This document shows, piece after piece, positions 11,890 through 62,878 of a stretch of 64,000 nt of DNA. A program made the position numbers and the translations under genes. The stretch spans positions 2,914,001 to 2,978,000 of the forward strand of contig NC_085852.1 of assembly GCF_020906515.1 (NCBI RefSeq), written 5' to 3'. Source of the DNA: Vanrija pseudolonga. Lineage: Eukaryota > Basidiomycota > Tremellomycetes > Trichosporonales > Trichosporonaceae. The notes below the pieces were generated by a model. That model was not told the origin of the DNA and did no database searches. It worked only from the letters and a program-made list of their open reading frames with translations. Within the stretch, counting starts at the first letter, position 1. Every line of letters begins with the position of its first letter.

Positions 11890-12849
11890 ATGCCCCGACC
11901 TCGCGATGATGGTGAGCCTCGCCTAACCACCTGCCTGGTGGCTTCATCGCCTCGTGTCGACTGACAAAGACCAGTGGACACCCTCACGGCAACGCACACG
12001 CCTGTAGCGTCAGACCTGGCATGGGATCCTCCTCCCCGGCGGCGCAGACGATCCCTCTTCTCCGCCCCACGCCGCCCCGACACCTTGGCAGACGTGATGG
12101 GCGTGATCAACGCGCAACCTGCCTCCTCCCTCTCCGTCGCGCTGCCACCACACCTCGCACCGGCGTTCTTCGAGTCCCTCCGCCACGTCGACGTGCTCGA
12201 GCTGCGCGTGTCCGCTGCTGGCCGGGACGCGGTGCAGCCGTTCGTCGGATACTTGAGCCGCTGTGGGCGCCTGCAGCGGCTGGTCGTCGCCTTCTCACCT
12301 GGGGTCGACATCGCGCCCGTCCTCGCTGCCGTGAAGGGGACCCGGCTCAAGCGCGTCTGTTTGTGTGGCCTCGGCTTTGTGGAGTGCAAGTGCCGCGTCC
12401 AACCCATCGGCGCGTCCACCCTCGGCGGGGTGCTCGACGCGCACTGCGCGGCGTCGTACAGGCAACGCTGCGCCGCGCTGCGCGTGCTCGTCGTCGCTCG
12501 TGTCCTGCTACACGCGCGGGCGAAGCGTACCCGCCGGTGGAGTCGTGCCCTGCCGGAGACACAAGGGCATGGGAACGAAGGCTGCGCGCCAGCGGTGTTC
12601 CGCCGGCCCCGCGTCCCGGCCGCCCCGCTCCTCTCCCTGCCGTTCGAGCTGCGCGCGCTCATCGCGTCGTTCGTCGCTGACCCCGACGAGGTGGGCATCG
12701 ACGGCGTGCGGAGGCTCATTCGGCTCGCGCGGGATCGTGGGTCGTTGCGGCGGGTCGCGAGGGGGCTCGGGCGGCTGGTCGACTCGCGCGAGGTCTCTTC
12801 TTGGGCTGAGGCGCGGGACGAGTGGCTTGCCATGGGTGGGTTTGGGTAG
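11890..12849 (+). CDS. GGFW-family protein, short form
   Basis: Member of the tandem GGFW family. Exons 11890-11911 and 11975-12849 give 298 residues; the first intron is in phase 1 as in most members. The N-terminal domain is reduced to a short DLAWDPPP segment with an arginine run, and the second, phase-0 intron is absent. The repeat-like region follows (DTLADVMGVINA), then a cysteine motif LCGLGFVECKC, the segment RVLVVARVLLHAR, and the C-terminal module beginning LLSLPFELRALI near residue 225. The protein stops at WLAMGGFG. Function unknown. It is convergent with the next member at 13130-14535. Confidence 0.72.
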
Positions 12850-13129
12850 AGGGATACCTTGGACCTTGGAGACACATGGGCGACAAAAGCGATACCTGTA
12901 GACAATGTATGTAGGTGATTCTTGCCAAGACGGCGGGCTGTGCGCATCAGTCACCTCCACACAGTCACCACGGACACGATACAATCTCCCGGCCACATGC
13001 GGCGGGTCTACAACTCTAGTATTGGTGGTGGTGGTACAAGCAGACAAACACTGCGGGGCGTCGTCGTCGGCGCCAACATGCTTCTCTCTCAACAAACGCT
13101 CTGCAGACTCTCAACAGACTCCCCCAACG

Positions 13130-14535
13130 CTACACCGTCCAGTCACGCCACGCGACCGGCACGCGGTGCTTCCACCAGAACCCGCCGTTCCCGAGCCACT
13201 CGCCGAGCGCGAGGGGGAACGTGATGCCTGCGGTGCGTGCCTCGCAAACGCCGGCGGCGAGGCGCCCGAGCGAGGCCGGGTCCTCGACGTGGCTCAACAG
13301 CTTGGACCACTGCTCATCCGTTAGGGCCAGGGGGTCGGCAGACGCGTGGCGGATGATGTTGGCGCGGAGGTGTGGTGGGAGCTCGAGGAGGGGGAACGGG
13401 GCGGCGCGGGTGTGGGCGTCGGCGTCGGCGCCGGCGCCGTTCGTCGCGGCCTTGTGGATGTCGTTGCCCGTACGGTTCGCGACGCTGCCGTTCGCACCGT
13501 TAACCTCATCGCCGGCACTACCGTTCGCCACGCCCCCCACGCTGCGTCCACCTGCGACGACACGCGCCAGGACGAGCGAGCGCACCGCCGCGCGCCTCAC
13601 CCTCTTGGTAAGGATGGCGTTGCGCTCGAGGTACACGGCCAGCCGGCGCACCTGGCGGTCCCACGCCTCGCCGTCGTCCCCGAGACCATGGCACGCGCAC
13701 GAGGCCAGGCGCTTACTCTTACACTCGCACATGTTGACTGCGCTGAGCGTGGGGTTGAAGTCGCGCACGGCGTCGACGATGGCCGACAGGTCGGCGGCAG
13801 TGAGGCTGCGCCCGGACATGACGAGCGACTCGAGGCCAAAGCTGCGGGGCGACTTGAGGAACTCGACTATCGGCGGGACGTGGGTCGCCTCCGGCTCGTG
13901 TAGGAACATGAGGGAGCGGGGCGGGCCGCGCGTGCCGAGCGCCCAGAACACGCGCTCGAGGTAGTATGGGTGCGGGTCGCATACCAGGCTTAGGTGGGCG
14001 AGGGGGCAGGCGTCGACGGCGCGCAGGATGGTCGGGAGCTTGAAGGCCTAGGTGGGAGAGCGAGAGTCAGCGTGAGAGCGAACAGGTGCGGTGCAGAGGC
14101 AATGTGGGGTGCGCCGACTCACTGGAAACGCCCACGCCTTGATCACAAAGAGCAACCCCGGCCCATTGTCCAGCACGGCCATGCCCTCGACCTTGAGGCT
14201 GTACTCGGCCGCAGCGAGGGGCACCTTGGCGCCGAGGATAGTGAGGGGGTGGGCGTCGACGAGCGCGAGGAGGGGGGCGAGGGGGTGGTGGGTGGGGGCG
14301 GGGGTGACAACGGCGACCTCATCGGCGGCGGTGGTGGAGTGGCCGTCGACGTCCTCGACGGCGGCGACGGCGGCGGTGACCGGCTCATCGTCGACACAGC
14401 GACGTTCAACCGTGACGCTCTCCCACAGCAGCGACGGACGCAGCTCGGCGGCCTGGATCCACACGTTGGCGACTGCGTGTGAGCTTGCTCTTGGGTGGTT
14501 GGCAACTCACTGGTAGGCTCGGCGCTGGGCACCAT
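13130..14535 (-). CDS. GGFW-family protein
   Basis: Exons 14511-14535, 14123-14472 and 13130-14047 give 430 residues, with the family's phase-1 and phase-0 introns. The N-terminal domain carries an Asp/Glu/Ala/Val-rich insert and HHPLAPLLALVDAHP; it is followed by the repeat-like region (ILRAVDACPLAHLSL). The cysteine motif is MCECKSKRLASCACHG, then RSLVLARVV. A linker of about 70 residues precedes the C-terminal module LLELPPHLRANIIRHASADP near residue 344, with LTDEQW, HVEDPASL and EWLGNGGFWW. Unlike some members it continues 13 residues beyond GGFWW. Function unknown. Confidence 0.78.
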
Positions 14536-15523
14536 GGCCGGCCGGGGTATGAACAGGTTAGAATGAAGGAGAGGAACGGAGAGGAAGGAGGGGTGAGGGT
14601 ATGTACAAGAGGAAGGAGGAAGGTGCGAGTGATGACTGCCTCCACCGGTACTGCCGTGTCCTGTTGTTGGACACACTGTGACTGACGGGGGCGAGAGGCC
14701 CGGCCGCCTGGCGTAAAGTTAATCTCGACGCCTCCTCAATGGAACCAAACAATGGCAGCAGGTGGGCATGGTCATTCGCTGGGACTAGTCGGATCGTCGC
14801 GTCTCAGCATTGTCAAGGGCGACGAGGCTGTGCAGGATGACCTTGAGAGACGGCCGGTTTACGGTACATGTGTGCTGCGCACCGTAGATGTAGCTGGGGT
14901 GGTGGGTGGTGGCGGTGGTGGTGGTGAGCGGAACCGACATCAGGCGGCGGCACTAGCTCGCCCAGGCAGCGGGTGCGTGACATGCGATACCGGCGCGCGA
15001 TGGCCAAGTGCCGCGCGCCCATCCTCGGCCGGCGGGTACTGGCTGGGTAGGCTGTATGTACGGGGTCAAGGTCACATCGTGGGGTGTGGTGCAACGGAGA
15101 GGAGAGCAATGTTGACGTCAAGCTCACAAGATCGCAACGAGCACCACCGACAAAGCACGTGACCTCCTACTAGTAGATCGGTGTCTTCATCGTCGCCACA
15201 GTAATCAAAGCCCCTCTCCCGCTCAACAAGCATGTGCCCAGGAACTGGAACTCATGCACACATCCGTAAGCACCGACGCACGACCAGCCCCCCGGCTCTA
15301 GAAGAAGAAGACCACGAGGCAGAACAAAACTGGGTGTGGCACGGCCCGGGCGGGAGATCAGCAAGCATAAGCGGGAAGAGGGCGGGAGTGTAGTCCCACC
15401 ACATGTCGACTACAGCGATGTGGTACGGTTTCGGGGGGTACGTGTCACCGGGGCCTGAGATAAGGCAAGCTCGACAAGCTCAGGCCGCTGGAGCAGTGCG
15501 CCGGCGTGCAGTATGTAGTTGAT

Positions 15524-15557
<34 letters not shown>

Positions 15558-15717
15558 GCCGACCCCGCCGCCACCTCGGCGCACGGCCGACTGGGCCCCC
15601 GCCCCCGCGCCGCGCCCGTGCCTGGGCTCGGAGCCCATCCGATGATGTCGCCGGGAGGCTCATCAACCTCCCGCGACTTTTCTTCTCTTGTTGTTGTTGT
15701 TGTTCTCGCCATCCACC
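14536..15717. other. Intergenic region between divergent GGFW genes
   Basis: No gene found in 1.2 kb. The two flanking family members diverge from here, so it must hold both promoters. Near 15520-15575 there is a tract of GAC/GCC hexamer-like repeats (GCCGACGCCGAC and GACCCCGCCGCC units). A TTG trinucleotide run sits just upstream of the ATG at 15718. Confidence 0.5.
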
Positions 15718-17172
15718 ATGGTGAGCGAGCAGCGGTACTTGGAGGGTGAGTAGTCTCTGCGCCGTCACTGCCCGCCGTCGCTGGCCTGACTCGCTCGCTC
15801 GCAGCCTCCCACGTCCACATCCAAGCGTACGGCTACAACCCCTCCTCGCCGACATGGGACTCTACCCCCGTCCCCCGCCGCGCCGCCTTCGCGCCCCTCA
15901 AGGCCATGGTCGACGAGGCGCCGCTCACCCTCGACGGGGTGAGCATCGCCGTGCGCCAGATGCCGACGTCGCGCGAGGCGGAGCTGAGTGGGTTTGCGGT
16001 CATCAAGGAGATTCCGGGCGTGGGGGTGACTATTAATGGGTACACTGTGCCGGTGAGTGAAGCGAGTGGGCGCAGCCGACGAGCAGGCGCAGAGCGTGCA
16101 GAGGGAGGGGGCAGCAGGAGGCGCAGGAGGACAGGCGTAGAAGCTCGAGAGGAGCATTCTTGGGCCAAACCATCATCCCCCGGCCCACCCACGGCGAAAA
16201 TCCACTTCCTCCCAGATCTCACACCTGCCGCGGGTTCCAACTCGGGTATCGCCCCGCGCCGTAGTAATACCCACCCTCTAGCGTCCTCGGCGTGACGTAA
16301 CAACCTGACGCTGACGCCACTCCCAGCACATTGCCATGCCCATTGTCCTCGAACGCATCCACGCCTGCGCGCTCTCGGCAGTCAACCTGAGCTTCACGCC
16401 GAGCCCCGTGTCGCTGCGGCAAGTGATGCTAGGGCTCCTGCGCCCTGCGTTTCCTCTGCGGTCAGTGCGGCTCAGCATCCCCCTGTCGCCGGGGGAGGTG
16501 CCGGCGCTGTGTGACTTCCTGCGCACTCGCGCGCGCGGGCTAGAGCAGCTCGAGCTCAACGGCGGGTTGCTGGCCGCAGACGACATTGGCGCAATCGCCG
16601 TGGCGCTGCACGCAAACGGCACAATCACCCGCCTCGACCTGTGCGCCTGCCGTCGCTTGGCGGGGCCAGACGCAGGATGTACCTGTGAAGGCTCGCTGGC
16701 GCACGACGCAACCCAACCCCACCGCGCGCAGATCGCCGCTGTCGAACAGCGTAACAGGCGTGCAGGCGCCAGGGTGGGCTCGGCGGCGATACGTGCCTTG
16801 GTCGTGGCTAGAGTATTGCTGCATGCGTGCGCGCCAAACCAGGAAGAGCATACCCCGACGACAACCACGGCGACGACTAGTCCTCCTCGGCAAACAGAGC
16901 CCACACCAACAACGCCACCCTTTCGCATCCTCGACCTTCCGCCGGAAATCCTGGCGCACATCCTCGCATTCAGCTTTGACAGCGGCGCGCTCACGCGACT
17001 CCAGTGGATCAAGGTGCTCCGCCGCGCGCAGGACCGCGGGCGGATCGCCGTCGAGGCGAGACAGTTTGCAAAGTACGCCCCCGGGAGTGGGAGTGAGGAG
17101 ATCTCGGCGGCGCTCGCAGAGTGGGCGATCAGCGGCGGGTTTGTGTGGGCGCACGAGTATGCGCCGGTGTGA
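15718..17172 (+). CDS. GGFW-family protein
   Basis: Exons 15718-15745, 15805-16052 and 16327-17172 give 373 residues. Introns are in phases 1 and 0 at the family positions; the second, 274 nt, is unusually long. The N-terminal domain reads HVHIQAYGYNPSSPTWDS and then FAPLKAMV. The third exon starts the repeat-like region (VLERIHACALSAVNL). The cysteine motif is LCACRRLAGPDAGCTC, followed by RALVVARVLLHAC. After a Thr/Pro linker the C-terminal module begins ILDLPPEILAHIL near residue 292 and includes LTRLQW and AQDRGRIAV, ending EWAISGGFVW plus eight residues. Function unknown. Confidence 0.78.
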
Positions 17173-18005
17173 GGCGTGCATTGACGGGGTGCTTGCGGTA
17201 GCAGCCGAGACCAGTAGAACATTACGGCCCCGGCGCGCTACGCTACGTACCCCGGCGACAGACAGTGTTGTACATTAGCCATTAGCTAGCTAACTGGATA
17301 CAGACAGTGGTGGTATACGTCATGCGAAGAGGTGTGCCGTGGTGCGTTACGCACGCTCACTGTCGTGCTAACAAGAGCCGTGCTACATGGCCATGGGCTT
17401 GGGCTGGGGCTGGGGTGTGGATGTGGTCGGTCGCCGTAGTGGCGCTGGGCTGTAAGCGATCTGGCGGCGCCGTGGGCTTTGAGTGTGGGGATGGTGGGCA
17501 TGATATGCGGGGTGTGGTCGGGCGTGCACAACGACCCAGTGTAACCGCTGGAATGTTCCGAGTCCCTGTGGTCTTGCAGCCCTGGGTGCCCAATGTTGCT
17601 GATGCCGCTGGCCCAGTGCCTGCATAATGTTGCCTGTCATGTACCCATTGCCGAGTGGCCTAGCCGCGAGCGTGCTCGAGTGCAGCACCAGCGCGTGACT
17701 GGCGACTCCTCTGGTGTTGCCCCGCACGCGATTGCCGTTAATCGGGCTTCTAAAAGTGCACTAGCGCCACTTTGTCTAGTGTCTGTTCCTCCTCTCGGCC
17801 AGGTTACATCGACGACACCTTTCTACTTGCAGCTCTCCATAGCCGCGAGAGTGGTGGCTTCATATGCATGGCGGTGTGTACGGGTCACAACGCGCTGCTC
17901 GTCGCCGCTGTGATCATTTACACACTCACTCACACGCTCACCTTCGTCGCCACCACCAGCACCACTCCCACCGCCGCCTGACCCCCCCGCCAAACCCCCA
18001 CCGCC
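17173..18005. other. Intergenic region
   Basis: Nothing gene-like seen in about 830 bp between two rightward family members. The right part should hold the promoter of the gene at 18006. Confidence 0.5.
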
Positions 18006-20024
18006 ATGTTCGGTATGCTCGACTTTGGCCTGGCCAAGGTCTTCGCCGTAAAGGAAGAACAGTACCTGCTAGCCCCAGTGACGATAAAACCCAAGTTTAA
18101 CGCGCTCCGCCCCGCCCCGCCGCCGCCAGCGCCGGTCGCGCTGCGCCCGCCCTCGCCGGAGGAGGAGCTAGAGGAGCCGCAGTACACTGACAACCCGGAG
18201 GACTTTTACGATTATCTCGAGGACGCCGAGCCAGAGGACACGATTTCAGAGCCCTCGTCGAGCGCAACGAGTGTGCAGGATTTCCCGGCGCGTGAGTGGG
18301 CTCGGGGGGAAGGAGTAGGTGGAGGTGTGGGTGCCGCTTGGGGATAGCGGAGCAGTGGAGGGGTGGGTGCCAGACTAGGGGAGGCGGAGCCGGTGGAGGG
18401 GTGGGTGGTGGCATTCTTCTTGATAGCGCAGCGATCATAGGGGTGGGTGGGCGGGCCATTTCTCGCGCACAGCGCGTAGGGGTGGGTGGGCGGAAAAAGT
18501 ACCACTCGCGTAGCAGGGTGGGTGGGTGGGCGAGATGAGTAGCGAGCGACAGCTCGAGGGTGGGTGGGTGGGTCACCTTCCTCGCGAGCAATGCTCTCGA
18601 GGGAGGCAAGGGGGAGTGCCACCTTCCTTCCACCTTCCTTCCACCTTCCTTCCACCTTCCTCGACGGCAACCGGCGGGCGATTAGTATTCTCTGTGCAGC
18701 CCTAACACCCCCAGAACAAGCCCACGTCAAGTTCAAACTCCTCAACCACTCCCCCGTGCCGCTGCACTCCCGCGTCGACTCCTACTCAAACCCGTACCTC
18801 TCCGACCTGCGCTGCATCGACGGGGCAGTCGACGAGGGCGGGTTCGGCGGGTCGCGCGACCCCGACCAGCGGATATGGATTCTGGGCGTGTACGACGGGT
18901 ATATTACGCGTGCTGTTGGCTTGGAGGCCGTCGTGCGCGTGTTTAAAGAGCGCCTAGTGGACCACGGGACAGTGTATTTCGGCTGGCGCGACGACAACCG
19001 CGCAATCTTTGACATCTTCTTCAACATCCTCCCCGCGTTCACACTGCGCACGCTCGACATCCGCTTCCCGGACCCGGCGTACGTGCCTGCGTCTTTACTT
19101 TCCTTCCTGTCCGGGCACCGCGCAAACGGCCTCCAGAGCATCTACGCGACGGGCGTACACTCGTCCCCGCGCCTGCTGGAGAACCTCTCAAGCGCTCTGA
19201 TTGAGGGCCAGGGAACGCCAAAGCGCATCTGTTTCGGCTGGTGCGGCGAGCTCACAGACGACCACGGATGCCCAGGCCACCGGCCGCCGTGGTCGTGCGC
19301 GCGCATCGCCGAGCGCGTAGAGGACGCCGTGGCTACCAACTTCATGCAGCAGTCGTCCGTGCGCGAGGCGTTCAAGGACTCGTTTGTCGTCGCCCAGGTC
19401 ATCCTGCTCGCCCGCCCCGGGCCGTTCGTGCCGAAGCCAATCCACAGGGCGCCGTCCACCCCGCCCCGCGCCGTCTCCTCCGGCACTGGCGTCGGCGTCG
19501 GTGCCCCGCCGCCCACGCCGCCGATCACGCCCGACGGGCCGAGGCGGACAAAGTCGGTGCGGTGGCGTATCGGCGCCGACATGCGCCGCGTGCCCGCGCG
19601 CCCCATGTCCATGGCGGGCGGGACGGTCGCGCCGCTGACCCCAACCACGTCCAACTCGTCGGCGAGCAGCGGCGGCTCGGTCCGCTCGCTGGGCCTGACG
19701 CGCGAGCTGACGCTCCCGTCGTCGTCGAACGGCTCGGTACGCTCAGCGTCCATCCGGAGTAACGCCCAGCGCGTGCCGCCCCGCCCGCGCCGTCGCGCGC
19801 CAGCGTCCCTCGCTACCCTGCCCCGCGCGCTCCAGATCCGCATCATCAAGACGGCCGCCGACGCCCCCGACGACCTCCAGCCCTCCCAGTGGGCGCGCTT
19901 GCTCGAAATCGCTGGCGATAGGGAGTATCTTGGCCACCGGACCCGCGACATCGCCGAGCGCGAGGCCAAGGGAGACGAGTTTGCAGAGCTCATGACGGAG
20001 TGGATGACTTCGGCCGGGTTCTAA
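18006..20024 (+). CDS. GGFW-family protein, large divergent member
   Basis: Exons 18006-18291 and 18715-20024 give 531 residues. The phase-1 first intron is kept but is 423 nt and full of short tandem repeats; the second intron is missing. The first exon is much longer than in other members and codes an acidic, Pro/Glu-rich N-terminus. The central region keeps family spacing (VFKERLVDHGTVYF, then TPKRICFGWCGELTDDHGC), but the C-x-C is altered to CPGH...C. A long Ser/Pro/Gly linker (residues about 290-455) precedes the C-terminal module LPRALQIRIIKTAAD near 460, with LQPSQW and AGDREYL, ending EWMTSAGF at the stop. Function unknown. Confidence 0.72.
18292..18714 (+). repeat. Minisatellite-like repeats inside an intron
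   Basis: The intron holds many GGGGTGGGTGGG-type blocks at about 18310-18570, then four to five copies of an 11-bp unit CACCTTCCTTC at about 18618-18661. Neighbouring introns are mostly 35-60 nt, so the length gain comes from repeat growth. The G-rich strand is the transcribed-sense strand and could form G-quadruplexes; that is inference. Confidence 0.7.
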
Positions 20025-20644
20025 GTAGGTAGGCAGGCGGCGGGTGCGTGTTAGCCGGCACAAGCGCCGCGCCGCGCCGCGCGCCATGTCGCTTCCGAGA
20101 ATCGGCGTTTGGGTTTTCTGGTGCGGGGGTGCATATGCAGAGCTGTGCGTAGCCCGCATGAGTGCTGGCCACTGTCGTTGTGCTGGTCACCTTTAGTATC
20201 ATGTTGTAGGAGTAGGATGTATCGTGTGAGAAGAGCAAAGCCTGGCTGGGGTCGGGTTGATTCCGCCCGTTGTCAACAAGGTCGAGTCTGTAACGTCATC
20301 ACTCCGCATCGTACATTGCGACTTGTTACTTCTCTGGTCAATCCAACTACCACACTAGCATCGCTCACATACCCACGACTCGTGGCCGCGTAAACAAAGA
20401 CACATATCGCACACACGCAGGCGTAGTTCATCGTTACTGGACACTCACGGCAGCTGCTGCGCCCGCCCACACGAGCAGACCAGCAAGCCACCACCGGGCA
20501 GCAGAGCCCCGTAAACAGGCGAGCGACCCATCACGCCGCGCCCATTGCCCACTCCGCCGACTCGTCTCTCAACACCGCGCGCGCCCTTCAGCTTCCTTGG
20601 TCTTCTACCCCGCGCCCATCCACCCCCTCCCCCTCCACACCGGC

Positions 20645-22162
20645 ATGAGCCTCGCCGACACGCGCATGCCGCGCGGCCCCACCCCGCCCCCCGACATCCC
20701 GAAGGGTAAGTCCGCACCTCTGCGCCCCGAGCTCACACATACACACTCAGGCTTCAAAGGCAACGTCTACGCCACGCTCAGGCTGTACACCTACCGCCCG
20801 GCCGACGGGCTGCAGTGGGCCGCTGACCTGGTGCATCTCGACGACGACCCGCTCGCGCCGCTGCGCGCGCTGGGCTCGCGCGACGGCGAGCGCAGATACC
20901 CGCTCCTGTCGGTCATGGACATGTCGGACCCGCGCGACGGCAAGGACAAGCACGCGCCGTTTAGCGATGCGCAGGTCGAGTGCCTCCACGTGCCCGAGGT
21001 CGCTAGGTCCAGCCTGCGGGACGACTTTACGGCCGTCATGAGCGCGGTCAATGCGTGCCGGGTCGACCGGTTGAGTCTGACGCTCGACCACGATAACCAG
21101 GACGGCAGCGGCGCCGCCGACACCGTCGCGACGCTGGGCGCCTTCTTCGAGCTGCTGGATAACCCGCACGTGCGGGCCGTCGACGTCCGCGTGGTAGACC
21201 GCTCAGCTACGCCCGACCCCGAGTTTTGCGCGTACGCTGGCGCACCGGCGCTCGTGCGGCGCGCGCACGGCCTCACGACGCTCGAGCTCCACAAGGACGT
21301 GCTCCATGGCGTTTCTCGCGCGATGGACGCCGAGACGGTGGTCGCGATCGTCGACGCGGTAGGCAAGCACAACAACACGCTGCTCCGCGTGCATCTCGGC
21401 GTGTGCAGCGCAATCGGGTTCAACTGCGACACGCACTTCTCGTGCTGCTTCGACCTGTCGCGCTTCAGCGACGGGCTGAAGGTCGACGGGCGGTGGGACG
21501 AGCTCGCGCGGCTCAGCAGAATACTCAAGCGCAACGAGACCGAGACGGTGCGCCTGCGCACCGCGGCGAAGAAGGTGCTCGTGCCGGCTAGGATACTCCT
21601 CCGCGGGCGGGCGCGCACGCCGCACGACCCGCCGTCGCCGCTCGACACGGTGCGCGCGCCGCCAATAGCGCGGCAGCTGCGGTTCCGGCGCGAGTCGGCC
21701 ATCCTGACCAACGTGGATGGCATCGCCACGTCGTCCCCAGAAGCCAAGGCCAGCCCGCTGCAGCTGCGCCGCATGTCGGCGACGCTCCTGACGATGAAGA
21801 GCGCGCTCAAGCCAAAACACAAGGCGCCGACGTCGCCCAGGCTCGACGAGTCGCGCCCGTTCCCCATCCTCGAGCTGCCGGCGAACGTCATCCGCCTCGT
21901 GCTGCAGCAGCTCTCGGCCGACCCCGGCGCGCTGACCAACGCGCAGTGGACGGCCCTGTTAGACCAGGCGCAGGACCCGAGAAGCCTCGGCCTGCTCGCC
22001 ACGGCAACCCGCGACGCGTCGCACAGCCACAACGCGATCGTCGACAAGATGGACAGCCTGAGGAAGATCTCGAAGGAGAAGTTTAACAAGGCGATGAACG
22101 ATTGGATGGCGAATGGGGAGCTGTGGTGGGAGCGGGCGCCTGTCAAGATTGAGGGGGGGTAG
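20645..22162 (+). CDS. GGFW-family protein
   Basis: Exons 20645-20705 and 20751-22162 give 490 residues. The 45-nt phase-1 intron has a GTAAGT donor; it contains no stop and is a multiple of three, so retention would only add 15 residues. The N-terminal domain is the clearest in the family: LRLYTYRPADGLQW, then DDDPLAPLRALGSRDGE. The second intron has been lost. The repeat-like part includes FTAVMSAVNACRVDRLSL; the cysteine motif is GVCSAIGFNCDTHFSCC; next comes KKVLVPARILLRGR. After a basic linker the C-terminal module starts ILELPANVIRLVL near residue 393, with LTNAQW and AQDPRSL, ending WMANGELWW plus nine residues. Function unknown. Confidence 0.78.
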   Translation: MSLADTRMPRGPTPPPDIPKGKSAPLRPELTHTHSGFKGNVYATLRLYTYRPADGLQWAADLVHLDDDPLAPLRALGSRDGERRYPLLSVMDMSDPRDGKDKHAPFSDAQVECLHVPEVARSSLRDDFTAVMSAVNACRVDRLSLTLDHDNQDGSGAADTVATLGAFFELLDNPHVRAVDVRVVDRSATPDPEFCAYAGAPALVRRAHGLTTLELHKDVLHGVSRAMDAETVVAIVDAVGKHNNTLLRVHLGVCSAIGFNCDTHFSCCFDLSRFSDGLKVDGRWDELARLSRILKRNETETVRLRTAAKKVLVPARILLRGRARTPHDPPSPLDTVRAPPIARQLRFRRESAILTNVDGIATSSPEAKASPLQLRRMSATLLTMKSALKPKHKAPTSPRLDESRPFPILELPANVIRLVLQQLSADPGALTNAQWTALLDQAQDPRSLGLLATATRDASHSHNAIVDKMDSLRKISKEKFNKAMNDWMANGELWWERAPVKIEGG

Positions 22163-22435
22163 GCATGGCTAGCGTTGCGCGGAGCGTAACGCGAGGCGCA
22201 TCTCTACTTGGCCGGCCTCACTCGTGTGGACAATGAGGAAGCGGACGCCACACATACTTGTATGCATATGTTCAGCATTGCGTCAGTGGGGTACGTGCGG
22301 GTGTGCTCGCGCGTAGGCGTCAATCAGCCACTGCATAATGTTACAACAGGGTACAAGGTGTGGGTCGTGAGGGGGACAAGGTGGACAACTATAAAGCTCG
22401 TTCTAAGCCACAACAGGCCATCTACGCCGCGGCCA

Positions 22436-23647
22436 CTACGCATTCCTGCGGTCCAGACGGCGGTTAATACCGCCCAGGAGCACCTTGACGATCATCTCGG
22501 CCGTCATCGCGCCGGCATACGGCACCGTGTCGACGATATCGCGGATATTGTACCTGTTCTCGAGGGCGTCGTCGAGGTCCTGGAGCGCTTCCGTCGCCTC
22601 GGGGTCGCTGCCGATCTGGAACATCTGGATGCCGCACTGCGAGAGCGGGAAGTCGTACTTGTCGAGATACTTTGCAAAGCTGACGATCGCCGACTCGGGG
22701 TCGTCGGTCGGCGCGCCGTCGGTGATAACCAACAAATTGAGCGGCTTGACAGTGTACATGTCGCCGCCGGAGCGCTTGCCGGCCTCGTACGCGGCGTCCA
22801 GCTCGCGCTTGTACTCCTTCAACAGCTTGTCGAGCCGCGCGCCGGTCGGCGTCGCCCCGCTAGGCCGGACGCGGTTGAAGAGCGCCTCGACCTCGCCGAC
22901 GGACTTGACGCCCTTGGCGGCGCTGCGGTCGTTGAGGAAGTAGATGTCGATGCCGTCCTCGTCGTACTTGATCGCATGCGCGACCACGCCCTGGATCGCC
23001 GCGCGCGCCTCGCGCCACAGCGAGCCCGCCATGGAGCCCGAGTCGTCGACGAGGAACACCGTGTCGTAGTCGCGCAGCATGGCGAGCTGCTCCTCGCCAT
23101 TGAGGATGAGGGCGGCCGGCGAGCCCGCGCGCGCAGGAGGAGCCACAGCGGCGTAGCTTGGTGCTGCTGGCGCTGGTGCGGCGGCGTACGTCGTCGGAGG
23201 GGACGGCGGCGCGGCGGCGCGGCTCACGCTGCCGACGCGCACCGGCGCAGCGGGGACAGGCGGCGGCGGGGCAGCGTACGCCGGGTACGCTGGCGGCGGG
23301 GCGACTTCCGGCGCTGGAGCGGCCGCGCTCGGGAACAGCTTGGAGCGGGGCAGGCCCTTGTCGTCGCGGATCTTGGCGAACGTGCCCGCCGTATCGGCGG
23401 CGAGCCGTTCACTGACCTTGGCGAGCGCGCGCTCGAGGTCGTCGAGCTTGGTGTTGACCTCGGCGACGCCCTTGCCCCGCCGCTTCTTGCTCTCGACGTA
23501 CTCGCTCACGGCGATATAGTGCGCCGTGGAGTCCTTTGTGCTCCCGAGCCGGGAGATGACGCTATCGACCGAGGGGCCGGAGGAGAAGAGGGGCTGGGCG
23601 TGGGTGAGTGGGGCTGGGCGGGGTGGCGGGTCGACTCGACTTACCAT
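22436..23647 (-). CDS. von Willebrand factor A domain protein
   Basis: Predicted metal-binding, protein-interaction protein of the intracellular vWA type common in basidiomycetes. With a 51-nt intron directly after the ATG (GTAAGT...CCCAG) the product is 386 residues, starting MPLFSSGPSVDSV; the intron is stopless and in frame, so an unspliced form would also be read. Residues 1-90 are charged and partly helical (a short coiled-coil candidate at 45-65), 90-165 are Pro/Ala-rich, and the vWA domain runs from about 175 to the end. The metal-ion-dependent adhesion site is intact: DDSGS at 184-188, with TDGAPT downstream. No signal peptide or membrane segment. Cellular role unknown. It separates two blocks of GGFW genes. 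Confidence 0.85.
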   Translation of the reverse strand: MVSRVDPPPRPAPLTHAQPLFSSGPSVDSVISRLGSTKDSTAHYIAVSEYVESKKRRGKGVAEVNTKLDDLERALAKVSERLAADTAGTFAKIRDDKGLPRSKLFPSAAAPAPEVAPPPAYPAYAAPPPPVPAAPVRVGSVSRAAAPPSPPTTYAAAPAPAAPSYAAVAPPARAGSPAALILNGEEQLAMLRDYDTVFLVDDSGSMAGSLWREARAAIQGVVAHAIKYDEDGIDIYFLNDRSAAKGVKSVGEVEALFNRVRPSGATPTGARLDKLLKEYKRELDAAYEAGKRSGGDMYTVKPLNLLVITDGAPTDDPESAIVSFAKYLDKYDFPLSQCGIQMFQIGSDPEATEALQDLDDALENRYNIRDIVDTVPYAGAMTAEMIVKVLLGGINRRLDRRNA

Positions 23648-24520
23648 TGTTGTTGTGTGGATGTGTGTTGGTGGAGCTGGTGTGTGCTTGTCGCTGTGTG
23701 GATGGATGAGAGCAATGACAACACGAGGATGCACAGAAGCATCCAGTATATATGTGCTTCGTGCGAGTCGAGCCAGCCCACCTAGGCCCCGGGCCCCGCC
23801 GTCACATGCTCCTTGCCGTTCTCCGTCGCCGCCCGTCCGTGCCAAGAACCCCGCTGTGGCCGTCACCGCATTGCGGTGCAAGTCTCCGCGTCTATCTAGC
23901 CGACCAAACCGAATGACGTCGTGGTGAGTCCAGTCCCCCTTGCACCCACCGCATGCTGTGCGCCGTCGCGCGTGTCAACATGAGTCAACCTTGTTGATGT
24001 GCATCGCCCCGACGTCGCCGGCCGCGGAGGGCACGGAGGGGTGCAGGGGTGGATGGATGCATCCGAGCGAAGATGATAGCCGGCCGTGCACTTTGTGCTA
24101 CTGGGGGTGACAGCCCTCACCGCGCTTGGCACCACCCATGTCTTAGGGACTAGACCTGGAGGGGGGCTTGTCGCCCGCTGCCTATCTCTCGGAGACATGC
24201 AGATCTCTGCAGCCATGTAGATCTCCTTCGTCACATTATCAATACATTCATGGCCCTACAATACTACACAACACGAGCACAACTCGTTGCGCGTTGCCTC
24301 ACTGTTGATCCAATTCAGTCGCCAGCCGCCGCCGCCGATCGCGTCGAGGCCAGGCCACGCAGGCAGGCTCGATCGCTCACCAGACTAACCACAACTAAAC
24401 ATGAGTGAGGTGCGGCTAGTACCGTCGTCGCTCACTCACTATGGACATGCACAATATCGACGTCGACGCGTTCGTCGACGTGTCCACCGCACATATCTCA
24501 CTGATGCCTGCCTTACCACG
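23648..24520. other. Divergent intergenic region
   Basis: About 870 bp between the vWA gene and the next GGFW gene, which point away from each other. No gene was found; it should carry both promoters. Confidence 0.5.
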
Positions 24521-25629
24521 ATGGGCCGTCCACTGCCAACCTGTAAGCTCGCTGTTGCTTGGCCATCAAGAGCTCACGCGCCCAGTCCACACCGTCGTCC
24601 TCGAGGCCACGCCGTTCCTCCTCATCTGGACGCCGAGCGACGGCCTCCGCGGCCTGCGCGAGCTCGGCGAGCCCTGGGTCTTGTCGCGGGACAGGAAGAC
24701 GCACGTCCTGATTCTGACAGGGCACGGGGTGCCGGTGAGCCCAACCAAACCCTTATGCCCACATGACTGACCCCCACACCCAGTCTCACGACCTCCCGGC
24801 CCTCGTCTCGTCCATCTCCGCGTCAAGTCTAAGCATAACCATCACATCGTCGTCCGCGTCCCACCCCGCGCCGGAACCCGAGCTCTTCAACACGCTCTAC
24901 CTGTCGCGGCTGCGCAGCCTGTCCCTGTCCTCGTCGGGCCCAGCCAGCGCCGACACATTCACCTTCCTCGCCGCGTTCCTCCGTCTCTCCTCCTCGCGCG
25001 GGCTGGAGCGGCTGGCGCTCGACCCGGGCCCGTTGACGGCAGGCGAGGTCCAGGTGCTCGCGGACACGGTCGAGCGGCACAATGCCAGCCTGTCCGAGCT
25101 GTGCGTTGCTGGCTGCCGGCCGCAACGGGCCCGGTGTTACTGCCGCAGCGGGTGGGGTCTCGGCGCCATGCTCGACGAGAGCAAGCGCCTCGGGGCCGCA
25201 CTGCGGCGGAACGAGCGCCTGCGTGTCCGCGCCGGCCGGGCAGCGATCCGCGCCCTCGTGCTCGCCTGCGTGCTCTTCCACGCCAGAGACGACCGCCGCG
25301 GCGTAGTGAAAGCCATGGCGTCGATGTGGGGCACGCGTGTTCGCCCAGCCAAGCCCGCCGGGCCGCCGTTCCCTGTCCTCCGGCTGCCCCGCGACGTCGT
25401 GGTGCGCATCGTGCGCTTCGCCACCGGCGACCCAGGCGCCCTCGCGCCCGACCAGTGGGAGCGCGTGTTCGCGCTCGCTGCCGATCGGCAGGGGCTGCGC
25501 CGCGTCGGCACGGCGTTTGGCGGCGCGCGCACGAGCGAGGTCATTGCCGAGTGGCTTGCTGAGGGGGGATTCTTCTGGGACCGCGCTATTCCACCCTCGG
25601 CGCGGAGCGACCTGCGCCGGGTGTCGTAG
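24521..25629 (+). CDS. GGFW-family protein
   Basis: Exons 24521-24542, 24586-24734 and 24784-25629 give 338 residues with the phase-1 and phase-0 family introns. The first exon is only seven codons (MGRPLPT). The N-terminal domain is VVLEATPFLLIWTPSDGLRG. The repeat-like region contains LVSSISASSLSITI and LRSLSLSSSG. The cysteine motif is LCVAGCRPQRARCYC, followed by RALVLACVLFHARD. The C-terminal module starts VLRLPRDVVVRIV near residue 255, then GDPGALAPDQW and AADRQGL, ending EWLAEGGFFW plus 18 residues. It is convergent with the next member, with stops 55 bp apart. Function unknown. Confidence 0.78.
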
Positions 25630-25683
25630 GGCGTAGCATCGTAGACTGTGTCATTATGCTCTCACATGCAATTGTCGTCGTCG

Positions 25684-26780
25684 TCACCAAAACCCGCCGT
25701 TGACGAGCCACTGAGCTCGCGCCTCATCCACGCTGCGCCCGTCGATAAGCGCCGCGCGCACCCCGTTCGCGACGAGGCCGAGCGACTCGGGATCCTGCGC
25801 GTGCGTGAACAGCTTGAGCCACTGCGCGGCGGTGAGCGCGCCAACGTCGGCAGAACAGTGCTTGACGACCAGCGCGACGAGCTCGCCGGGCATCTCGAGC
25901 AGCGGAAACGCTTCTGGGTCCACCTCGTCGCTTGGCCTCGCGCGCAGGAGTATGCGCGTGGGCACGATAGCGGCCCGTACGGTCGCTTGGGCGCGGCGTA
26001 CGTGCTCCCCATGTGCCGCCAGTGCCGGCGCCGCCGCGCACGCGCACCCGCACGCTCCGTTCGAGAGACATACTGAGCGCGCGACGCAGATATGCGACAG
26101 CGTGTCGCTTCCCTCTGCGGCGGCGAGCAGCGCGCCAATGTCGTCCTGGACTAGCCGCAAGCCCTCCAACACGACGCTGTGCAGCCCTTTCGACCGGCGC
26201 AGGAACGACGACAGCGCGGACACGTTGTCCCGCTCCACTGGCGTCGTGATGGTCAGCCGTTGAAGATAGGGGACTGCCAGCCTTGCGCAGAGACGCGAGA
26301 GGTACCGCTTGTCGACGGCCTGCGAGGAGCTGGTGGGGAGGATCGAGATGGTCAGGTCGGCGATGCGCGCCGCGTTGATGTGGGCTATGACCGAGTCGAG
26401 TTCGTCGAGCTGCGCGAGTGTCCGAGCGAAGCGAGGGCGCGGCGTATGTACACATGCAGGCAGGCGGTAGCGGGCAGGCGTCAGCTCTACCTTCCTTCCC
26501 CCACCACGCACGCCAACTCACGCTGCGACACCGCGTCTGTACCCTCAGACTCCCCCGCTCGCGCCTCCCCTCCCCGCTCATCAGCCCCGCAAACTGCTCT
26601 TCGACCGCAACGAGCGGCGCGAGCGGGTCGCCCCGCCGCCGCCCCGCGTCCCACTGTAGCCCGTTATGCTGTGCGCTCGCGCGCAGCGTCAGGTCTGTCG
26701 GCGTCGTCGACGTGCCCACGGCTGCGGGGTCAGCTTGGTCTCTCGGGCGGCTTACTGTCCGCTACGCCGGGGGTGCTCAT
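25684..26780 (-). CDS. GGFW-family protein, archetypal
   Basis: Exons 26756-26780, 26522-26721 and 25684-26409 give 316 residues and stop directly after GGFW. Both family introns are present (phase 1 after MSTPGVAD, phase 0 before LDELDSVIAHINAARI). The N-terminal domain has NGLQWD and GDPLAPLVAVEE. The repeat-like region has LQRLTITTPVERDN and GLHSVVLEGLRL; the cysteine motif is SVCLSNGACGCAC; RAAIVPTRILLRAR follows. The C-terminal module is LLEMPGELVALVVKHCSADV with LTAAQW and AQDPESL, ending QWLVNGGFW. It begins a leftward run of head-to-tail copies. Function unknown. Confidence 0.8.
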
Positions 26781-26935
26781 TACGGCGAGTGAGTGACGAC
26801 ACGGAGATGGACGACGCCGACTCGGAGATCTCCGGCGCGAGACTCGGTTGGTACTGACTGCTTCCATGTTTGTCTTGTGTCTACGTTGTTGTACGGTGTC
26901 TATCTACGTCTGCTGTCTATCCATGCGTGTCTATT

Positions 26936-28031
26936 CTATCTACTACCTCCCCCCTCATCCCACCAGAACCCGCCGTTATGCAGCCACTCATCCCACGCCG
27001 CCTGCCGCCCGACGCGCGGGTCGTCCTCTGCAACGGCCATCCCGCGCGCCAACGGCGCCAGCCCGGCGGGGTCCTCCGCATGGCGATGGAGCTTGGCCCA
27101 CTGCGCCGCGCTGAGCGCACGGGGGTCGCCCGATACGTGCTCTATCACGGCGTGTAGTAGCTCGCGGGGGAGGTCGAGGATGGGGAACGGGCGGGGGTCG
27201 TGGTCGTCGTGCACTGCTGATTCTTCGCCTTCTCCTTTTCCTTCACCTTCACCTTCACCTTCGCCTTCGCCTTCTTCTGGTGGCCTCGCGCAAAGCAGCA
27301 CCCTTGCAGGGACTAACGCCCTCCTCACCGCGTCCCTCACTCTCTCCTTGCGCTCTCCATTCTCCTCAAGAACACCGACTAGGCGGCGGCGCTTGTGGCC
27401 GCCTTGCTGCGGCGCACAGCTGCCCTCAGCGAGGGCGCCCATGTCCTCCTCTGTTGTGGCAAGCGTGTGCGCGATCGCGTCCACGTCCCCTTGGGAGTGG
27501 GGCTCAAAGTCGAGCGAGAAGAAGCCGAGCCCTGCCGCGCGCGGCGAGGACAAGAACGCCAGCTCGTGCGGGAGCGTGTCGACTGTCGGCCGCGCGCCGA
27601 GCCACAGGTGCTTGAGCGCGGGGATGTCGATGAGCGCCAGGATGCGCGCGTACAGCTCGTCGTTGGGGTACGGGTCGTACAGGAAGCAAATGGACGAGAG
27701 GCGCGAGGCGTTGAGCGCAGTGAGGATGGCGTCGAGCTCGGTCGTCTGGTGGGTGTCGGTGGTGTCAGCATTGTCGCCCGGAACAGGTGGGGTAGAAGCG
27801 CACATCGGCCCAGGTAAACGTCGCAATGTACCGCGTGCGAGCGGCCTCGCCGCTGTTGCCGCCGTTGCTTGCGCCCGGCACGACCCGCAGCGCAGAGTAC
27901 ACGCCCTGCGCGCGCGCGTCCGCCGTCCACTGCAGGTCTAGCTGCCCCTCGGCGAGGACGACAAACGAGCGCGTCGTGGCAGGTGCGAGGGGGAGGGGTA
28001 TTGTCGCTGTCGGTGGTGTCGGGAGGTGCAT
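26936..28031 (-). CDS. GGFW-family protein
   Basis: Exons 27804-28031 and 26936-27745 give 345 residues. The first family intron is absent; the second, phase 0, is kept with a GTGCGC donor. The N-terminal domain reads SFVVLAEGQLDLQWTADARA. The repeat-like region starts TTELDAILTALNASRLSSI. The C-x-C motif is missing, replaced by an insert with GSCAPQQGGHKRRR. RRALVPARVLLCAR is followed by a (Glu-Gly)n low-complexity linker. The C-terminal module is ILDLPRELLHAVIEHVSGDP with LSAAQW and AEDPAGL, ending EWLHNGGFWW plus seven residues. Function unknown. Confidence 0.77.
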
Positions 28032-28802
28032 TGTGGTGGTGCGGGGGTGGGGTTGGTAGTGGCGCGCCGACGTCCATCCAACTCATACATAGTCAGTCAG
28101 TCGGCCGGCCACGACGACCTTGCATGCAGCATCCTGTCGTCGCAGCGCACACGCACCGCTCCACGCTCCTCGCCATCGATGCACGCCGCCGTGCCACCCT
28201 ATCTCCGTGGCACTGACCACGCCACCGCTCGACGTCGCCACGCACGCCAAGCCGCCCGCTCCACCCAGGATTATGACATGACGCGGGAGTGGAGCCACAG
28301 CCAGGCGACGCAACCTCCCTGTCCACATCAAACCTGCATCCGAGACAGGCCACGCGTTATGCTTAGTTTTGCATTCACCGCCGACCAACCCCCAGCGCTC
28401 CACGCCGCGTCGCTGGCGTCGTCATGCATCTGGTGCTTGGTGCTTATACCCGCCGGGGTCCGATGTCGGGGCACGTACATTCGGCCCTAGTGGAGTGAGC
28501 CGCTCCCAATCTCGGCAATGTGTCTCTCCACTCTCCTCGGGTTTTTCTTTTCGAGTGTCGCCGCTCGACTCTCCACCGACGCTGGCGGCCCATGACCGGC
28601 ACTAGGCGCTGTCTGTGGTGCTGGCTGACCCGACCCAGGCCCACCCCAGGCGCTAGCCCACCCCCATGCTATCTGATAGACCTGGACGACGCCTCGACTC
28701 GACCCGACCGACCAGCGGCATAGGCACAGCTACAACAGCGTCGTATGACGTGGTAGTAGTAGTAGTAGTAATAGTACAACATTCGCCCCTCCTCTCCCTC
28801 AC
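28032..28802. other. Intergenic region
   Basis: No gene seen in 770 bp. It lies upstream of the leftward gene ending at 26936 and downstream of the next leftward copy. A short TAG/TAA trinucleotide run (near 28756-28775) is the only visible repeat. Confidence 0.5.
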
Positions 28803-30007
28803 CTACGCCGCTCTATGCGGGCGCGTGGCGCACACCTCGCGATGCGACAATGAAAACCCGCCGTTGAACCACCACTCGTTGCGCCTGTCGCGCCGCTCGG
28901 CCTCGGCGTCCCAGCTCTGTCTCGGATCCAGCCTGTTCCACTCGGTCACGACGCGCGTGAACGCGTCCCGGTCCTCGGCGTACCGCAGCACCGTGGCCAC
29001 CTGGGCGCGGGTGAGCGTGTCGGCGACAGTGAAGCCCAGGATGCGGTGGATTATTTCCGCCGGGAGCGACGTGAACGGGCTTGCAGCTCCGCCCGGGGCA
29101 GGCAGCGCATGGAGCAGCACCTGTGCCGTGACGAGCGCGCGGGCGGCCGACGCGCGCAGGCCTGCATGCTGCCCCGAACTCGCGAGCACATACTTGCTCC
29201 ACGGCGAGTTCTCGGCCCGCATCCCCTCGTGCTTGCGGTTGTGCTCGGCCCAGTCGTAGTCGGGCTTCAAGGTACGCGTGTAGTCCATGCCGACCTCGAA
29301 CAAGCCGTCGTGCGACTTGCGTGATGTCCAGCTGTTGTCGAGTGTGGCGAGCACGCGGGCGAGGTTGCGCTCGGCTGGCCGCCCGGTCGTGGGGCCGTGC
29401 ACTGTCACTTCTTCGAGCGTCGCGCTGCACGGGCGGGCGAAGAAGCGTACCAGCGCCTGTGCCGTCATGAGCAGGTCGGCAAAGGACAGAGCCCTCGCCA
29501 CAAAGGTCAGCTTTCGGAGCTGCACGTCCAGACCGTCCAGCAGCGCCGCGGTGATCGCGTCCGCCGTGGGGAACTCGTTGCTGCTCTTCAGCGTGATGGT
29601 CAAGTTGTCCAGCGGGCCACACGCGTTGATGGCGGCAATGAACGCGTCGAGCTCGGGACGACCCTAGCGGCATTAGCGGTTGGCCGCGGCATGAAAAAAA
29701 GAAGCACTCACAATTACGTCGACCGTTCCGTACAGGTGCGGCCGTCCCGTCCGCTCCTGGTGCTTGCGCTCCGTCTTGGGCGACGTCGGGCTGCACAGCG
29801 CGCGTAAAGGAGCAAGTGGATCACTCGCGATGCGAGCGAGATGCTGCTCGGTCGAGTCAAAGTTGAGGTGGGTCGAGCAGGCGTCTGCGTGGATCTGGAG
29901 TCGTGCTGGTTTCGTCAGCGAGCACGCCCCGGAGACAGCACGCCGCACTCACTCCCAGAGTCGGGCGGCGACTTGTTGCCCCGTCGTCGCGACTGTGCTG
30001 AACCCAT
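28803..30007 (-). CDS. GGFW-family protein with myristoylation-like start
   Basis: Exons 29953-30007, 29712-29905 and 28803-29663 give 369 residues with both family introns. The first exon encodes MGSAQSRRRGNKSPP, which fits an N-myristoylation consensus (Gly2, Ser6) followed by a basic patch; membrane attachment is inferred only. The N-terminal domain includes LQIHADACSTHLNF and SDPLAPLRALCS. The repeat-like region starts ELDAFIAAINACGPLDNLTI. No C-x-C motif is visible. RALVTAQVLLHAL precedes the module FTSLPAEIIHRILGFTVAD with LTRAQV and AEDRDAF, ending EWWFNGGFS plus 17 residues. Function unknown. Confidence 0.77.
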
Positions 30008-30077
30008 TATTACGCATCGAATCGAGGTGGATTGAACAATGTCAAGTTGCTTTGTACTGCACAGGCGCGGGTTTGGC

Positions 30078-30094
30078 CGCGCGCGCGCGCGCGC
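30078..30094. repeat. Alternating CG tract
   Basis: A run of about 17 bases of alternating C and G sits 70-90 bp upstream of the leftward gene that starts at 30007. Such tracts can adopt Z-DNA. The wider interval 30008-30730 shows no gene. Confidence 0.6.
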
Positions 30095-35298: not shown

Positions 35299-35320
35299 TC
35301 ATGTATACATGCTCTTTCTT

Positions 35321-55755: not shown

Positions 55756-56864
55756 ATGGCAGGTGGGTGGGATGTTGACAGCACGGCGCCGACTGACGCT
55801 CGCCGCAGCCCAGATCCAACTCCACGGCCGCCTGGACGCAACGCCAGCCTGGGCCTTGGGCCCCTCCCGCCCCCAGCGGCCCTTTCGCGCGCTGCACGCC
55901 TTCGCGGAACGGTGCGACAAGGTCCAAGTGACCTTTGCGCTGCTCGGCGCCGGGCGGCGGTTCGGCCTCGTCGGCGCGGGGCTGAGCGTGAGTCGGTGTG
56001 CTCGCCTGGCTCCCTCCTTCTCCGCTGACTACCTCCTTCCCCCAGACCGCCGAGGTCCACCTCCTCGCTGAGGCGCTCAACGCGTGTACCCTCGACACGC
56101 TGAGTATCCAGATCCAAGCCAGCGCCGAGGGCTACGCCGCGCTGCTGGCCCTCACCCTCCCGCTCCGCTCGCTCGCCATCCACGCCGTCGACGCGCGCAT
56201 CGTGCCCGCCGTCGTGCGCCTGCTGGGCCGTAATGGCCCCATCGGGAGCCTGACGCTCGATGTGCGCATGTGGCCGGACGACGAGCGCGCGATCGCGACA
56301 GCGATCCGCAGGCGCACATCGCACGCACCAATACGCAGCGTGCACCCCCCGCTCAGCGGCACCGAGGACCTCGTGCGCGCCAACCTCGCGGTCGTGCGCG
56401 GCGCGCGCAAGGCCGCGATGCGCGCGCTCGTCGTCGGCTGGGTCCTCATCCACGCGCGGGACGCTGCCACCGCCGCGCGCCGCGGATCAGCGGGTTCCCC
56501 CAAGGCGGGCAGCCCGACGGCGTGGGCGGCTGCCTTTAGCTGGTCCGTCCTCTCCGCGCGGCAGAAACACCCGGCGCTCCAGCACAGGGGGTACGAGCGC
56601 CTCGACTCGCTGCCTGCCCCCTCTGCACCGCCTAGCCCGCCGCCCACGTCACCGCGCCCTCCGGCAGCTGTGCTCCGCCTGCCTGCCGAGCTCCGCTTCC
56701 GCATCGCGCTCTTCGCTGCGGACGCCGACGGCGTGCTCAGCCCAGAACAGGAGCGCAGGCTCGCCACTGAGGCTGCTGACCGCGCCGCGCTGGCCAAGGT
56801 CTCGTGGACGGAGGCGGAGCGCGGGGCGGCGCGAGATCGCTGGTTTTGGGCCGGCGGCATGTGA
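55756..56864 (+). CDS. GGFW-family protein, dispersed copy
   Basis: Exons 55756-55762, 55809-55987 and 56046-56864 give 334 residues. The first exon is only seven bases, the smallest in the family, yet the phase-1 and phase-0 introns are both kept. The N-terminal domain is QIQLHGRLDATPAWALG and FRALHAFAERCD. The repeat-like region starts VHLLAEALNACTLDTLSI. There is no C-x-C motif. AAMRALVVGWVLIHARD is followed by a linker and the module VLRLPAELRFRIALFAADAD near residue 270, with LSPEQE and AADRAAL; the protein stops at RWFWAGGM. It lies about 19 kb from the main array, next to the LKR/SDH gene. Function unknown. Confidence 0.74.
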
Positions 56865-60425: not shown

Positions 60426-61193
60426 GGAGTGTGACAGCAGTGTCCATAGTGCGACAGATAACCGAAAAGCAACGTATAGTGTAGCGTAGCCCGACTGTAA
60501 TGTATTCACGAGTCCTGGAACAGCGCTTGACGGACGACGGTGGGCCGAGGTGGGCCGGCGAACCAGCCACCCTGTGCAGCTGCCACGCCGCTGCGCCGCC
60601 GCACCCTGCAAATGACATGAACCAAACATGACCTGGGCTGGCAGGCAGGAGTGGAATGGCTGACGTCGGGTCCACATGCTCCCACCTCCTCCGATCCGAC
60701 TCTGGACGCTACCTCATTTGTACTCCTTCGCTCAGCATCGCCTTGTCGCATGCAATGGCATCTTCGGCAAACACCCCGGCAGCGTCATTGTCAGCTGCAC
60801 ATGTCGTCCGCGGCCAGCACTTACGGCATGGGCGAGGTACGGCTGAGCGACCTGCTGAGACTCTAGGGGCGGCAGGCAGCTCGTCTTTGCTGACCTCGAC
60901 GACAAGCCATCGCGCGTGATCCCAGGAATCGGACGTTGTCTCTTATTAAAACGTGGACGGGGCAGGAACACACTCGTCGTCGTCGTCGTCGCCGCCGCCG
61001 TCTCGTCTCAGTGTCCATATCCCCTTGTGCTCTCCCCTTGTCTCGCTCGTCGTCAACAAGACGGCCAGTATGCGTCGTCGCACGTCTCCCGGCCAGAAAC
61101 CTTGAGCTACAAAGTTGACGAGCAACGACCACGAGCGGAGCGACCTTCCACGACGACGACAATAACAACCACTGCAACAACGACAGCGACACC
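60426..61193. other. Intergenic region
   Basis: About 770 bp with no gene seen. A CGTCGT/GCCGCC trinucleotide run lies near 60977-61005. The right part is upstream of the next family member. Confidence 0.5.
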
Positions 61194-62878
61194 ATGTCAT
61201 ACGACCTAGGTGGACCCGGCGCAAAGTCGGCCTCGCACCTCCCGCAGCAGCAGCGCCCGAGCTCGGGCCACAGACCATCACGGAGCATGGGCAGCGTACC
61301 GACGCGCCCTCCGCCGCCGCCGGGCGGCGTGTCGCCCTCGAGCAGCGGCATTCCGAGCAGCGGCATCTCGCCCTCGAGCTCCAAATCCGCGCTCGCAGCA
61401 GCATCAGGAGCGACATCCAAGCTCGCGCCGCCGACCCAGGCCGTCCCGAAGTGTGAGTTGAGCTGTAGCGGGGGCATCGCTGACCCCAGTCAACGAGATA
61501 TACATCCAGGCTACAGAACAGAACGACGGACTGCGATGGGCGCCAGCAGAGCCGCCGACCGACACGCCGCTCGCGCCACTCGAAGCGCTCGCCGAGAGCA
61601 GCAGCTTCCGCGAGCAGCTGTGGGAGCGCAAGACGAAGCGCTGGCATCCCGACCGCCCGTCCATCTCGCTGCGGGGCAAGTGGAGGACGGTGAGTGGGCT
61701 TGGCGTTGTTGTTATTGTTTCGGCACAGTTTGATCGCCGCGCGCAACGGCACTGACACACGCGCCCAGCTCGACGAGCTCGACCGTATCGTCGCGCGCAT
61801 CAACGTCTCGCGCATCGACTCACTGCTGGTCAAGTTCTCCCCGCCGGCGCACTTTCGCTTCGCGTACAAGTTTCTCTTTATGCGCCTGCACGTCACGGGG
61901 CTGCGTCGACTTGGGATCGACGACCCCCTCCCGCCTGCAGCTATTCCTGCCCTCGCCAACTTTATCCGGAGCCCGCGGTCGCACGGGCTCGTCGAGGTTG
62001 TGTTTGACGGCTCGGCGCTGAGCTACGACGACGTCGCGCCGCTCGCCGCCGCCGTTAAGGACAACACAACCCTCGCGCGGCTGTGTGTCGGCGCATGCAA
62101 CCGCCGGCTGTACATGCCCATGCGGCAGAGCTGCCAGTGCTTCCAGCCGCTCACCAAGATGTGGGGCCACGACGGCGCGTCCGGCCACCTGGGGCACATC
62201 GCGCCCATGCTCCTCCGCAACCGCGACATGACGGCCAAGGTGCACAAGGCGGCGCTGCGCAGCCTCGTGCCCGCACGGATACTCCTGCGCGCGGCCGACG
62301 TCGCGGCGGACACGAGCTCCGAGCTCTCGGGGTCAGCGCCGCGCGTCACGGCCCAGCCGTACCGCTCCAACGGGTTCACGGTCAAGCGGCCCGTCCGGAG
62401 CCCGCCGCGCACGGCCGCCGTGCTGAGGTTACCCAGGGAGGCGCTGGCGCGGATACTGCACTTTGCGGCCGACGAGTCGGCGCTGCTGACCGACGACCAG
62501 GTCGCCGTCGTGCTCGAGCATGCCGCCGACCCCGCCGCGCTGTCGAGACTCGCGCGCGAGATTGGGAGCGGTAGGACAGATACTGTCGAGAGCAGGCAGG
62601 TGCGCGTCGAGTGGCTGTCCAAGGGCGGGTTCACGTGGGAGCGCGAGGTGGCCGCCAGGATACGGCTGCAGGCGCCGCCAGAGAAGGCGCCAGTGCCCGT
62701 CAAGCCGCTGGCTGCTGTCCGTCCACCAGTACAGGCGCGGACGCCGTCCCAGACGGGTGGGGGGACGCTGCCTCGGCGGCCATCACAGACCCAACAGCCG
62801 GCGCCGGCACCACCGCCGCCGCCAGCACAACAGCCGCTCAAGTCTGCGCTGAAGCAGCCGTCGAGCCGACTGATTTAG
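61194..62878 (+). CDS. GGFW-family protein, dispersed copy with proline-rich tail
   Basis: Exons 61194-61452, 61490-61689 and 61769-62878 give 522 residues with phase-1 and phase-0 introns. The first exon is long (86 codons, Ser/Pro/Gly-rich with repeated SSSGIPSSG units). The N-terminal domain is IYIQATEQNDGLRW and DTPLAPLEALAE. The repeat-like region starts LDELDRIVARINVSRIDSL. The cysteine motif is LCVGACNRRLYMPMRQSCQC, followed by RSLVPARILLRA. The C-terminal module starts VLRLPREALARILHFAADES near residue 370, with LTDDQV and AADPAAL and EWLSKGGFTW. Unlike other members, a Pro/Gln-rich tail of about 80 residues follows. Function unknown. Confidence 0.78.

Follow-up and report, generated by a model that had tools for sequence, protein, structure and literature searches.

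What kind of protein is encoded by the tightly packed, related genes found between positions 2914001 and 2978000 of contig C4 of Vanrija pseudolonga? A sequence-only reading of this 64 kb stretch (the window; the genome comprises 24.87 Mb in 9 contigs) had described fourteen genes built from modules of unknown kind. The repeat domain proves to be of a familiar type, and the module at the C-terminus to be F-box-like. The family consists of known parts, a leucine-rich repeat (LRR) domain and an F-box-like module, in an arrangement that is reversed and greatly amplified.

Size and distribution of the family

The window genes were traced through stop-to-stop open reading frames (ORFs), followed by alignment of their main exons, which agrees with the fourteen homologous genes first claimed; their main exons span 12073..62875. 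Twelve genes are packed on both strands into 24 kb (12073..36214), matching the 25 kb given earlier, while the remaining two, g13 and g14, placed by the earlier reading 19-25 kb away, begin 19.8 and 25.6 kb beyond the end of this group.

For the genome as a whole, fourteen is an undercount. Queries with five single proteins (E limit 0.001 for one and 1 for four) gave 31 to 67 matches each, and a hidden Markov model grown from the 14 window members yielded 73 ORFs when applied to the retrieved loci. Removal of nested copies left 68, of which 62 are nearly complete (aligned, with most of the profile covered) and six are fragments; this is a lower bound, as the loci retrieved were those that the five queries had matched, less three weak ones. 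The family is thus over four times bigger than first noted. Its clusters are found at C3:974-1002 kb, at C7:1865-1870 kb, and on C4 at 307-329, 2181-2193, 2405-2425, 2458-2522 and 2926-2980 kb, with a pair at C1:2772 kb and single genes outside them. Five of the six fragments occur at C3:974-982 kb, some in overlapping frames, which suggests that these are decaying copies. That the family as a whole consists mainly of decaying, unexpressed copies is extremely unlikely: the fragments, some adjoining in overlapping frames, make up six of 68 ORFs, whereas in 62 the main exon stays open across most of the profile even though pairwise identity nowhere goes above 45%, and the splice sites are conserved.

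The leucine-rich repeat domain

The repeat domain is an ordinary, known LRR domain of the ribonuclease-inhibitor type. It is identified both by profile and by fold, through repeated strand-helix units, an LxxLxL pattern and the LRR fold itself, and LRR_6 matches are present in 11 of the 62 members (Pfam, E up to 1; best E 4.5e-10). By profile and fold, the family shares this type of LRR with ribonuclease inhibitor and with the LRR domains of NLR type, but here the domain is short, is flanked by other parts and has no full-length match to them. In the AlphaFold2 model of g7, the LRR occupies residues 1-120 and contains four strands, followed by a long helix (residues 127-155) and the F-box-like module (168-236). 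From this order and the model, the small N-terminal domain with a DGLQW core is probably an LRR cap, and the long RALV-ARVLL helix probably a rigid link to the module. A CxC motif is found in the loop past the last LRR strand (g7 residues 121 and 123; window ~26038-26046, minus strand); among members having a residue at those positions, its cysteines are present in 34 of 38 and 31 of 34.

The C-terminal module

Across the 62-member alignment, the LPxEL...QW...EWLxxGGF module is marked by the P (62/62) and L (61/62) of LPxEL, the Q of QW (53/62) and the W of EWL (56/62). Among the Pfam matches listed for these members (E up to 1), the leading ones are to LRR models, F-box-like_2 (nine members, best E 0.0029) and F-box-like (five members, best E 0.022), and a whole-genome search with F-box-like_2 returns three matches, all within the family. 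In profile-profile comparison, the module aligns with a profile of 20 F-boxes from the same genome at 94% probability (score 35.9 over 43 columns), and at 91.4% when the alignments are made separately. Controls remain far lower, with column-shuffled F-boxes reaching at most 13.5 (150 trials), reversed profiles 10.8 and other family segments 9.4. The genome's F-box profile itself matches 57 PDB sequences, the top ones including FBXW7, FBXL2 and FBXL5. In the alignment, LPxELxxxI is matched to helix 1 of the F-box and the QWxRLxxHAxD helix to its helix 2, and the module helices follow one another in order both in the g7 model and in a model of the module alone. Helix 2 is aligned in the F-box register, the real hhalign score of 36.1 being higher than that of all 100 helix-2 shuffles.

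Several results weigh against kinship with F-boxes. Neither in the family members nor with the module consensus does any F-box model attain its curated cut-off; the consensus matches F-box-like at E 0.036, level with the unrelated HalOD1 (E 0.037), and only one of the 104 F-box-like (PF12937) matches in the genome falls in the family (E 0.16). When the long helix and the module are searched together as a profile, no PDB match is significant (ClpV1 E 0.94, FBXO42 E 1.3), and the confident model of the module alone (predicted local distance difference test, pLDDT, 95.2) returns no F-box by Foldseek or VIA. The first 20 columns, corresponding to helix 1, contribute 23.6 of the hhalign score, helix 2 alone scores 12.8, and profiles with shuffled helix-2 parts still reach 33.2 (100 trials). 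Because the fold search, PDB search, consensus and cut-offs give no clear F-box, the module is termed F-box-like rather than F-box. Of the checks proposed with the earlier reading, structure prediction with fold search recovered the LRR fold but no F-box for the C-terminal module, and the Pfam check of novelty, made on 10 of the 14 window members, found no family at its cut-off, yet the parts resolve as LRR and F-box-like.

A conserved module resembling the Skp1-binding domain, linked through a helix to an LRR with a variable face, has the layout of a substrate adaptor, and the family is read here as substrate adaptors, with somewhat better than an even chance. In these small proteins, the C-terminal module with its F-box-resembling profile would dock on Skp1, and the variable face of the preceding ribonuclease-inhibitor-type LRR would hold target proteins. 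The bound targets would then be ubiquitylated, and their diversity would have driven amplification of the family. A possible but less probable alternative is that these are LRR recognition or scaffold proteins, in which the C-terminal helical module is a separate domain that shares the LPxEL helix alone with F-boxes and serves dimerisation or a non-Skp1 partner. The fold searches and the concentration of profile signal in helix 1 point this way, as does a fourth helix whose conserved EWLxxGGF end is foreign to the F-box; the register of helix 2, its score above all shuffles, and the genome-wide selectivity of F-box-like_2 for this family argue against it. It is very unlikely that the module is a degenerate F-box which, in most members, no longer binds Skp1 and persists as a structural cap, so that binding or inhibition would fall to the LRR by itself. 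The low scores with every F-box model and the intact LRR would suit such a loss, but LPxEL retains its L and P almost without exception despite a mean identity of 24.9%. The earlier guess of a recognition or ubiquitin-adaptor family is compatible with an LRR joined to an F-box-like module, and a ubiquitin-adaptor role is, with moderate confidence, the best-supported function.

Divergence and duplication

Pairwise identity over the 62 members (1891 pairs) has a maximum of 44.9%, exceeding 40% in four pairs and 50% in none. The nearest paralogue lies within the same cluster for 27 of the 62, against a mean of 8.2 and a maximum of 22 in 5000 label shuffles. Because nearest paralogues share a cluster more often than in the shuffles and identity is low, duplication of the family is taken, on sequence comparison, to be local and old, without recent copies among these members, as had been proposed from the window. 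Column entropy peaks on the exposed strands of the LRR, where 20 positions, hand-chosen from the strand pattern, average 3.47 bits. It is low in LRR strand cores (1.50 bits), and amounts to 2.77 for the LRR helices, 2.25 for the long helix, 2.03 and 2.26 for F-box helices 1 and 2, and 2.81 for the final two helices. This pattern is consistent with a conserved frame that carries a variable binding face, with the provisos that buried positions are conserved in any fold and that column entropy does not measure positive selection.

Gene structure and surroundings

The earlier reading ascribed one module order to all fourteen window genes (Table 1). The alignment bears this out for the RALV-ARVLL segment, the variable linker and the C-terminal module, but not for the N-terminal domain, which is laid out as a strand, xGLQW and then DPLxPL. 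In a profile search, this domain is clear in seven genes (g5, g7, g9, g10, g11, g12 and g14, all in the profile seed except g9), weak in two (g2, E 3.3; g8, E 9.6) and not found in five (g1, g3, g4, g6 and g13). Exactly one phase-0 GT donor is found upstream of a short stretch (38-132 nt) ending at LDEL in eight of nine window genes tested, with at most three further donor-like sites per gene in the other phases; the exception, g5, is open through the intron place. Among the 62 members, an acceptor is present at the aligned start in 49 (against 469 of 1240 random places), and in 34 it is accompanied by a branch-site-like CTRAY (against 37 of 1240), which upholds the kept intron site noted earlier.

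Table 1. Coordinates of the family genes in the window.
Feature	Position	Strand	Remarks
g1 main exon	12073..12846	+	LRR and C-terminal F-box-like module; start from alignment
g2 main exon	13133..14047	-	phase-0 donor 14122
g3 main exon	16333..17169	+	start from alignment; weak F-box-like_2 match, E 0.071
g4 main exon	18915..20021	+	most diverged window member
g5	20768..22159	+	DGLQW domain (from 20768), LRR (from 21020), F-box-like module; single open frame without intron
g6 main exon	24784..25626	+	ORF and alignment
g7 main exon	25687..26409	-	protein modelled by AlphaFold2
g7 exon 2	26522..26704	-	NGLQW domain; ends at phase-0 donor 26521
g7 putative short first exon	26756-26780	-	authors' own reading
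g8 main exon	26939..27745	-	phase-0 donor 27803
g9 main exon	28806..29660	-	N-terminal domain exon 29712-29909
g10 main exon	31356..32150	-	N-terminal domain exon 32283-32420
g11 main exon	32864..33616	-	N-terminal domain exon 33666-33845
g12 main exon	35324..36214	-	N-terminal domain exon 36253-36447
g13 main exon	56052..56861	+	ORF and alignment
g14 main exon	61769..62875	+	N-terminal domain exon 61483-61689

Other genes are interspersed with the family. A von Willebrand factor A domain gene (E 2.9e-6) is found inside the cluster at 22436-23974 on the minus strand, and a TRAF-type zinc-finger-like gene between family genes at 43705-44526 on the plus strand (PF15965, E 6.4e-5; PF02176, E 3.4e-4; both under cut-off). 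A single 862-codon open frame at 52683-55271 (plus strand) combines AlaDh_PNT_C, Sacchrp_dh_NADP and Sacchrp_dh_C domains, which suggests a bifunctional lysine-ketoglutarate reductase/saccharopine dehydrogenase. In fungi, these are usually separate enzymes. The gene content also includes OPT transporters and Gaa1, and introns are short.

Comparison with known systems

In FBXL proteins such as SKP2, the F-box precedes the LRRs, whereas each of the 14 window genes, like the alignment of the 62 members, shows the reverse order; the family is not assigned to FBXL, as its module follows the LRR. According to part of one source, FBXL proteins bind substrates via the LRR, and SKP2 has 10 LRRs (PMC7729025); here the LRR is short, with four strands in the model, and the F-box degenerate. 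Poxviral ankyrin-repeat (ANKR)/F-box (PRANC) proteins likewise have repeats first and an F-box-type module at the C-terminus, and their truncated F-boxes are described, in part of PMC9414399, as binding Skp1/Cul1. They are viral and carry ankyrin repeats, while the present family is cellular and carries LRRs, the sequence relation being compared by Pfam scan alone. Membership of this group was rejected: the repeats are LRRs, and the matches listed (25 of 28 Pfam families) include neither ankyrin nor PRANC models. A bolder extension, regarded as unlikely, is that the family is a diversifying receptor repertoire, in which an LRR reader and a C-terminal degenerate F-box would form more than 60 parallel ubiquitin-ligase adaptors, with LRR faces that recognise targets subject to change, for instance selfish or foreign proteins; the poxviral repeat/F-box design would then have its counterpart in a cellular genome.

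Within the same genome, ordinary F-box-like genes (104 PF12937 matches, 52 above cut-off by own count) are related in profile to the family module and score far above family members with that model. They are likewise grouped in places, namely at C3:4130-4197 kb, C5:1573-1587 kb and C7:2192-2224 kb. At the level of titles and abstract openings, no description of such a family was found in the literature, in line with the earlier statement that no named family has the full plan.

At least 62 genes of this genome combine an LRR and an F-box-like module, the reverse of the FBXL order, compared with the 0 to 5 LRR-type F-box proteins per fungus given in part of PMC7991009. The case also illustrates that pooling paralogues can resolve an "undescribed", diverged family into known folds. 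If the module binds Skp1, these genes would constitute an exceptionally large set of adaptors for a small genome, and would offer a direct system in which to ask what such repertoires recognise.
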